In this document: piece by piece, positions 11,984-64,000 of the stretch
Layout: each line of letters begins with the position of its first letter
How positions within the stretch are numbered: position 1 is the first letter of the stretch
NCBI GenBank assembly: GCA_030692355.1
Contig: JAUYCF010000089.1
Location: forward strand, 1-64,000
Origin: Thiobacillus sp.
Lineage (GTDB): Bacteria > Pseudomonadota > Gammaproteobacteria > Burkholderiales > Thiobacillaceae
Direction: 5' to 3'
Length of the DNA: 64,000 bases
The notes under the pieces: model-generated
What the model saw: only the letters and a program-made list of their open reading frames with translations
What the model was told of the DNA's origin: nothing
Database searches by the model: none
Made by a program: the position numbers and the translations under genes

Positions 11984-12238
11984 TTTATCCGCGAAGTACG
12001 CGAAGGGAAACCCTTAAGAAATCGCTGATTAATTTGTCATTGCGAGGAGCGCAGCGTCGTGGCATACGATTCCACATGGGCTTCAGCCCATAGTGGATCG
12101 GAGTCCTTTAGGGCAATCCAGAAATGCCCGCTTGATCGATACGCTGGATTGCTTCGCTGCGCTCGCAATGACGGCCATATCGAAGTAATCGCTTCCTTAA
12201 GAACGCCTTCGCGCCACTTCGCGTCCTTTGCGGACAAA
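11984..12238. repeat. Palindromic element family B (copy 1), interrupted by a family C element
   Basis: Left arm tttatccgcgaagtacgcgaaggg...cccttaag; right arm cttaagaacgccttcgcgccacttcgcgtcctttgcggacaaa. Confidence 0.75.
12036..12172. repeat. Palindromic element family C (copy 1)
   Basis: gtcattgcgaggagcgcagcg ... ctggattgcttcgctgcgctcgcaatgac. Confidence 0.8.
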
Positions 12239-62469: not shown

Positions 62470-62779
62470 CTAGCCGTCCAGGTCGGACAGTAAATCGGCC
62501 TCATAATCCTGTCCCCCGTAGAACACGCCAATGATGGATACCCTGTCCGCGTCCACCGCAAAGGCGATCACGGGCCGTTTTTTGTAGTTCGTGATGCGCA
62601 GGCCAGTACGAATGTCATCGCGGCGGGTGCCTCGATGCGGGAAGGACTGCATCGCCTCGCAATACGAGACAATGGCGTTGGTATAGCGCTCCGCGGTTTC
62701 TGGCGATGCCCTGGCCGCGACGATAGATTGCAGCCAGTTATTCCTCCGCCTCTGGCGTGAAAACGACGGTAAACGGCAT
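62470..62779 (-). pseudogene. RelE/ParE-type toxin pseudogene (nonsense at codon 14 plus frameshift)
   Basis: ATG at 62779 reads MPFTVVFTPEAEE*LAAIYR; conserved remainder ARASPETAERYTNAIVSYCEAMQSFPHRGTRRDDIRTGLRITNYKKRPVIAFAVDADRVSIIGVFYGGQDYE lies in another frame. Confidence 0.85.
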
Positions 62780-63066
62780 CACGTCTTTGCAGTGGCGGTT
62801 TTGTGTTCGGCTGCGAGCCTGGCTCTCACCCCGTTAACAGCAACCACTCGTGTTGGATCGGCCTTCAGTGCGTCATAGGCCGCCCCCACTTGCTCCTGAA
62901 GCCAGTTTTCCATGGCGCGGTCGCGAGCCATCAGGACGCGCAATCCGTCCCGGATGACTTCGCTTTCCGTAGCGTACTCGCCGGCCGCCACCTTGGATTT
63001 CACAACGTCTGCCATCTCGTTCGGCAGGGTGATGCTGAATTGCCTGGTCGTGCGCATGATAGACAT
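62779..63066 (-). CDS. ParD-like/CopG-family antitoxin
   Basis: RTTRQFSITLPNEMADVVKSKVAAGEYATESEVIRDGLRVLMARDRAMENWLQEQVGAAYDALKADP. Confidence 0.9.
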   Translation of the reverse strand: MSIMRTTRQFSITLPNEMADVVKSKVAAGEYATESEVIRDGLRVLMARDRAMENWLQEQVGAAYDALKADPTRVVAVNGVRARLAAEHKTATAKT

Positions 63067-63147: not shown

Positions 63148-64000
63148 TCACCAATGCCTATCCAAAGCCGCCTGCCATCGATACGGCGCCGGGTCCAGCG
63201 CGGGCGCCTTGCCCTCCATCACGTCGACCAGCAGTTCAGCCGAGGCCGGCGCCAGCGTCACCCCGTAGCGGTAATGCCCCGTGTTGATGAACACATTGTC
63301 GAAATCGGGGTGGCGGTCGATGACCGGGATATTGTCCGGCGAACCGGGGCGCAGCCCGGCCCAGTGCTGCACCGGTTCGACCCCGGCCAGCGCGGGCAGC
63401 AGCTCGGCAGCTTCGTCATGCAGGCGCTGGCGCGTGGCAGCGTCGGTCGACTTGTCGAAGCCGGCGTCTTCCAGCGTGCTGCCCACCAGCACATGGCCGT
63501 CCCGGCGCGGAATCAGATACAGCCCGTTGCGATACACAATCGTATCCAGCACGCCCGGCGCCAGTTTGAACAGCAGCATCTGCCCGCGAACCGGGCGAAT
63601 GTTTGGCGTCGCCGCCAGCCCGGCCAGCCCCAGCCCCGACCACGCCCCGGTGGCCAGCACCACGCTGTCCGCCGGAAAAGTCTCCGCTGCCGTCTGCACC
63701 GCCGTCACCCGCCCGCCCTGCGTCAACACCCCGGTGGCCGGGCAGTGTTCGCGTATCGCCCCGCCCAACTGCATTACCGCCGCGCGCAGTGCCGCCACCA
63801 GGCGCGGGTTGCGCACCTGCGCGATGCCGGGCAGCCAGATGTGATTTTCTTTGGGAATGTATGGAGCAATTCCGTCATCGCGAGGAGCGCCTTTAGCCGC
63901 GAGGCCGCTGGCCGTGGCGGGACGCGGCGATCCGGAAGCCTTCGATTTCGCCGACATTCTGGATTGCTTCACTTCGTTCGCAATGACGGAGGGTGAATCT
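63148..64000 (-). CDS. Glycine oxidase/FAD-dependent oxidoreductase ThiO-like, 5' end beyond window, with in-frame palindromic element
   Basis: HIWLPGIAQVRNPRLVAALRAAVMQLGG...VVLATGAWSGLGLAGLAATPNIRPVRGQMLLFK...GHVLVGSTLEDAGFDKSTDA...GHYRYGVTLAPASAELLVDVMEG. Confidence 0.88.
   Translation of the reverse strand, partial: DSPSVIANEVKQSRMSAKSKASGSPRPATASGLAAKGAPRDDGIAPYIPKENHIWLPGIAQVRNPRLVAALRAAVMQLGGAIREHCPATGVLTQGGRVTAVQTAAETFPADSVVLATGAWSGLGLAGLAATPNIRPVRGQMLLFKLAPGVLDTIVYRNGLYLIPRRDGHVLVGSTLEDAGFDKSTDAATRQRLHDEAAELLPALAGVEPVQHWAGLRPGSPDNIPVIDRHPDFDNVFINTGHYRYGVTLAPASAELLVDVMEGKAPALDPAPYRWQAALDRHW
63872..63989. repeat. Palindromic element family C (copy 2) inside the thiO reading frame
   Basis: ccgtcatcgcgaggagcg ... 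ggattgcttcacttcgttcgcaatgacgg. Confidence 0.82.

Follow-up and report, generated by a model that had tools for sequence, protein, structure and literature searches.

Palindromic elements translated inside conserved enzymes have been documented mainly in Rickettsia, where small populations and relaxed selection offer a natural explanation. The Rickettsia palindromic elements (RPE; Ogata et al. 2000, 2002; PMC2229807, PMC10969869) are genome-scattered repeats of ~105-150 bp with terminal inverted repeats and an open frame for a conserved peptide, which sit in frame inside unrelated metabolic genes and are tolerated by the enzymes; Ogata et al. 2002 described the phenomenon as 'unique but recurrent'. 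As cited in PMC2229807, a guanylate kinase bearing an RPE was shown to keep its activity, with its affinity for the substrate altered (Abergel et al. 2006), and a 2024 review (PMC10969869) called a similar mechanism in other prokaryotes conceivable. The element that we describe here, from the thiO gene of a Thiobacillus, resembles RPEs in size, terminal repeats, scattered copies, open frame and in-frame placement within unrelated enzyme genes, which probably tolerate it, and differs from them in others: its peptide showed no similarity to any NCBIfam or Pfam family when compared at the peptide level, it is hosted by a free-living betaproteobacterium, while RPEs belong to an obligate intracellular alphaproteobacterium, and TA flanks most of its canonical copies, whereas it flanks some RPEs only (PMC2229807).

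Other described repeats share parts of this behavior. The ERIC/IRU (RU-1), RU-2 and RU-3 elements of enterobacteria (Delihas 2007, PMC2759123; PMC2229807) are likewise MITEs, of 103-168 bp, with open frames fused to genes and in some cases conserved; their sequence is different, and the Thiobacillus case adds clean internal insertions in conserved enzymes, seen against ~30-50 congeneric orthologues, together with selection measured on both insert and host gene. QMITE1 and QMITE2 of Coxiella burnetii (PMC5896051) are MITEs that overlap genes, sometimes in frame, but there the overlaps lie at the 3' ends of functional genes and the internal in-frame cases in hypothetical genes, whereas the Thiobacillus element is internal to conserved enzymes. 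Correia/NEMIS and RUP (PMC2229807) are short TA-flanked palindromic MITEs of similar length with other sequences and hosts, RUP being without an open frame in that source. We file the Thiobacillus element as a 'protein-coding MITE' and not as an RPE, with RPE behavior the closest parallel and ERIC-type behavior less close. A literature search (for the repeat sequence and for Thiobacillus with MITE), which left most subscription journals outside its reach, found no description of the element.

The DNA analyzed (the window, 64,000 nucleotides) opens a contig of 66,340 bases from a 3.27-Mb Thiobacillus genome and is followed by a further 2.3 kb of that contig. We consider it very likely that a MITE-like palindrome has inserted in frame in a loop of ThiO, where it would be translated as a near-neutral passenger that leaves the fold intact, and that the same route has led it into other enzyme genes. 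The features of the locus are as follows.

63148..64000 and onward to the ATG at contig position 64401, minus strand: thiO (glycine oxidase ThiO), an open frame matching TIGR02352 and PF01266 DAO.
63849..64000 and onward to 64017 (169 nt), minus strand: the full palindromic element, a decayed copy in the thiO frame, with outer repeats CTTGAAGCAGCGCTGAAAGATTC and GGAATTGCTCCATACATTCCCAAAG recognized against canonical copies.
63872..63989, minus strand: the inner palindromic core CCGTCATTGCG...CGCGATGACGG, encoding SVIANEVKQSRMSAKSKASGSPRPATASGLAAKGAPRDDG with its edges included.
63872..63883, plus strand: inner arm CCGTCATCGCGA, from the pattern search.
63978..63989, minus strand: inner arm CCGTCATTGCGA, from the pattern search.
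63849..63873, minus strand: the right outer terminal repeat, decayed, encoding GIAPYIPKE.

Between its ATG at 64401 and its stop at 63148, the thiO frame is unbroken and encodes 417 aa. An earlier note on this DNA had placed a palindromic element at 63872-63989, where both inner arms were found, and had read the reverse-strand thiO frame as open across it to the window edge; the peptide it quoted is indeed that of the open frame. Past position 64000, where the note had suggested looking for the N-terminal FAD-binding half, that half is present upstream of the insert and in the same frame, with its N-terminal FAD motif MPNLLIIGTGVSGLG. Both a score above the curated equivalog cut-off (TIGR02352, 269.1 bits vs 250.8) and the DAO fold of the structure model (below) identify the product, which also matches PF01266, as ThiO, whose named relatives belong to Thiobacillus and other Hydrogenophilales. 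A working gene is supported by two further results, namely that thiO is the sole close match in its own genome and that no thiH scored above its cut-off in the eight genomes that bear the insert (below). Just downstream of thiO, a ParD-like antitoxin gene (PF03693) and an adjoining probable toxin gene occupy window positions 62470-63066 on the minus strand.

The element adds ~59 residues to the protein (SLEAALKDSP...IPKEN, ThiO residues 128-186). The earlier estimate of 118-120 nt and about 40 residues thus describes the inner core and falls short of the full element. The thiO copy is longer than canonical copies, having a longer center and small indels, and its fold is decayed (DNA z -0.54). 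An automated inverted-repeat search of 63850-64000 returned no pair, as the arms differ at one base within the search seed; the pattern search of the same region did show them.

Elsewhere in the genome the element is a repeat family. Canonical copies are 139 nt long, with outer terminal inverted repeats (CTAGGGAA.CGCTGATTAATTC / GAATTAATCAGCGCTTCCCTAG) enclosing the inner arms. The outer repeat pattern, with at most three mismatches, occurs at at least 47 sites in the 3.27-Mb genome, many of which pair at 135-140 nt, and a backwards control pattern occurs at none; the core stretch 63872..63989 has 43 matches in its own genome (copy numbers there are lower bounds, taken from searches). TA stands at both ends of most canonical copies, as read in filled sites alone, and counting it as a target duplication gives a net insertion of 135 nt, or 45 codons. 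Short and multi-copy, with terminal inverted repeats and no transposase gene, the element is a non-autonomous, MITE-like, TA-flanked palindrome; its copy number and anatomy point to mobility. One canonical copy folds strongly as RNA (z -7.5). Frame 1 is stop-free in copies with 90- or 117-nt cores and in canonical copies reads VIASEAKQS...SGSPR...PRDDGINQRFP. Because this frame is stop-free wherever a canonical element is placed, the open frame of any one copy is unremarkable by itself. The insert peptide had no match at E up to 10 in NCBIfam or Pfam, libraries that presumably hold RPE models, and the sole match in a plasmid collection was a weak one in Methylosinus. A further copy of the same repeat superfamily, of a subtype whose frame is not kept open, lies at window positions ~12035-12173, and a hairpin near the contig end (66193-66243) gave sub-threshold Rfam matches on both strands.

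Turning to orthologues, ThiO was matched in 107 of the 118 genomes of the family. An insert at the same place, always in frame, was found in eight Thiobacillus genomes (G000, G090, G082, G068, G055, G106, G062 and G078) out of ~50 congeners, between the helix end AWC..HG(M/V) and the strand WLP(D/G)(I/V)AQVRNP; in some 30 others this place is taken by a short loop of roughly 10-20 residues, from which the insert residues are absent, as expected of the clean insertion that the earlier note had proposed looking for. Its suggestion that a palindromic element has become a protein insert is supported by this absence, by the in-frame upstream half and by the sharing of the insert by eight genomes. 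Within the carriers the insert varies: 16 of its residues are lost in G090 and its first half in G082, while G055 has gained 11 residues and G078 five, and all length changes between species are multiples of three (whole codons). In sister species of the carriers it is absent altogether. A ninth thiO insert occurs in G431 (G431:C188:310-411), a genome assigned to another family; the ThiO is Thiobacillus-like and its insert has the extra five residues of G078, so that either contamination or transfer could account for it. The same loop in two other congeners (G101 and G100) carries a translated copy of a different palindromic repeat, CCCTCTCCCC..CCCTCCCCC..CAAGGGGGAGGG, which reads LSP.LP.QG.GG and has several copies in G100 and G066, with shorter versions in the ThiO loop at loci L058 and L065. 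Perhaps this loop is a site where insertions land in general.

An AlphaFold2 model built on 29 ThiO sequences has the ThiO fold (TM 0.75 to glycine oxidase 4ysh). Residues 121-181 fall below pLDDT 50, a stretch with which the insert (128-186) almost coincides. With a moderate mean pLDDT of 71, the model can be trusted for where the loop lies and for its disorder but not for details. The insert is thus predicted to be a disordered loop in an otherwise normal ThiO fold.

All eight carriers fall inside one 18-row part of the ThiO tree, and this part needs more than one change in insert state: three are forced by well-supported branches, and the best tree has six. In the tree of the elements themselves, the inserts of G000, G090, G082 and G106 form a supported group and those of G068 and G055 another, while the G078 and G062 inserts lie near other copies. 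The codons AAC GAA GTG, or close variants, are common to the thiO copies of G000, G090 and G106 and partly to those of G068 and G055, and they occur in no standard-core genomic copy among those listed. From these sequences, the insert may have been gained once and later lost in some species, or gained at this site two to three times over.

Selection acts very differently on the two parts of the gene. Outside the insert, ThiO is under strong purifying selection (omega 0.13), whereas the residue sequence of the insert evolves almost neutrally, at an omega of 0.83 that is no different from 1 (log-likelihood -827.34 vs about -827.95). We rejected selection on the residue sequence as the main explanation: the raw pN/pS of 0.67 had hinted at weak constraint, and an omega below 1 was not supported. 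The synonymous difference is nearly the same in the insert (0.365) and in the rest of the gene (0.381), hence the insert is about as old as the divergence of the carrier species. What exceeds chance is the conservation over eight species without a stop, together with the length changes in multiples of a codon; with ~191 codon substitutions estimated on the insert tree, neutrality predicts 5.7 stops and none was observed (P about 0.0035). Taken with the omega of 0.83, the missing stops indicate an insert constrained to stay open and hardly to keep its residues. These values bear on whether the insert has been exapted, in the sense that its sequence provides the enzyme with a new trait under selection, for instance regulation or the binding of a partner. 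Retention in eight species, most with a recognizable VIANEVKQS...SAKSKASGSP...APRDDG motif, speaks for such a role, but the near-neutral omega, the truncations in G090 and G082, the insert-free sister species and the predicted disorder all speak against it, and we regard exaptation as improbable.

The earlier note's alternative, that thiO is disrupted or decaying and its frame open by accident, draws on the long open frames common in GC-rich DNA and on the one stop-free frame that a canonical element has anyway. It fares badly against the constraint on the rest of the gene, the lack of stops and frameshifts in the eight species that share the insert, the intact family motifs and the absence of a thiH over its cut-off; disruption is unlikely from the sequence data, and we would allow it a very small chance. 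Also highly improbable is excision of the element from the transcript or the protein, in an intron- or intein-like manner, to leave a mature enzyme without the insert. The strong RNA folding of canonical copies is the sole support for removal, yet no Rfam family matched within the element, little of the fold is left in the thiO copy, an open frame that RNA removal would not need has been kept, and known inteins are far larger than the ~59-residue insert. An assembly or binning artefact, conceivable in that short repeats can be assembled wrongly and most of the sources are drafts or MAGs, is hardly credible given eight genomes with diverged versions at the same site and flanks diverging in step with them.

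The element also sits in further genes. The element peptide was found in 27 of 57 congeneric genomes, and in-frame insertion into several unrelated conserved genes, missing from other orthologues, is what we observed. In an ELM1-family protein (G067 and G090) the element is internal and in the same frame as in thiO, at a place where the congeners examined have a clean ~42-residue gap. It is likewise internal, again in the thiO frame, in an acyl-AMP ligase of G000 and G090 and absent from five close orthologues (G104, G082, G068, G055 and G101); the ligase loop in which it sits (L231, G000:C4:13000-20000; L216, G090:C101) holds repeated GDRVAPxPxT units whose number varies between species. Copies in the same frame also stand at the N-termini of phosphoketolase (G000 and G055), FolC (G000, G082 and G090) and a BioH-like protein (G104), where the start codon is uncertain and the real one may follow the copy. 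As a control, frame 2, the other mostly open frame, also falls within long open frames; among those examined none was internal to a real gene, and two lay just upstream of start codons. Long frame-1 matches at an NHL-repeat lipoprotein, an MltB-like protein and MetK were dropped as non-coding or upstream of signal peptides. In G106 (C177, L217 1739-3328) two copies stand in tandem within a single open frame, immediately ahead of the signal peptide of an NHL-repeat-like lipoprotein and probably upstream of the real start of that gene.

To put the proposed events in order, the non-autonomous element would borrow a transposase acting in trans, probably a TA-targeting enzyme of the IS630/Tc1 type, and jump to TA-containing sites. 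One such jump, in an organism ancestral to some members of Thiobacillus, would have placed it in a variable loop on the surface of ThiO. One in six combinations of orientation and phase would add 45 codons without a stop, and the thiO copy appears to have landed in this way. At so flexible a site the protein could still fold, allowing the insertion to persist as a near-neutral passenger, presumably translated as part of ThiO into a disordered loop that directly precedes the strand WLP(D/G)IAQVRNP. Enzyme activity was probably retained. Residue sequence and palindrome strength would then have drifted nearly neutrally, with shortening or loss in some species, the main constraint on the insert being to stay open and in frame. 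The same route would have taken the element into several further enzyme genes in Thiobacillus.

The likeness to Rickettsia drawn in the earlier note therefore survives as a likeness of mechanism and not of element family, host (here a free-living betaproteobacterium) or insert size (~59 residues rather than 40). It seems possible, and we say so tentatively, that protein-coding palindromes are not peculiar to Rickettsia or to intracellular life: a free-living genus would have its own family, repeatedly entering enzyme loops through one stop-free frame with a net 135 nt that is already a multiple of three, possibly since selection at the level of the element favors variants that spare the genes they hit. 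As for the ThiO loop, it may even be a hot spot, entered two or three times by this element and in other congeners by an unrelated palindromic repeat. Now that the same behavior is seen in a free-living genus that has an element family of its own, an appeal to small populations and relaxed selection would not suffice as an explanation. With dozens of insert-free congeners as controls, the drift of a near-neutral insert inside a conserved host enzyme becomes a measurable case, and the old question of whether such inserts are passengers that the protein tolerates, or material from which new protein parts arise, can be put to a direct test.
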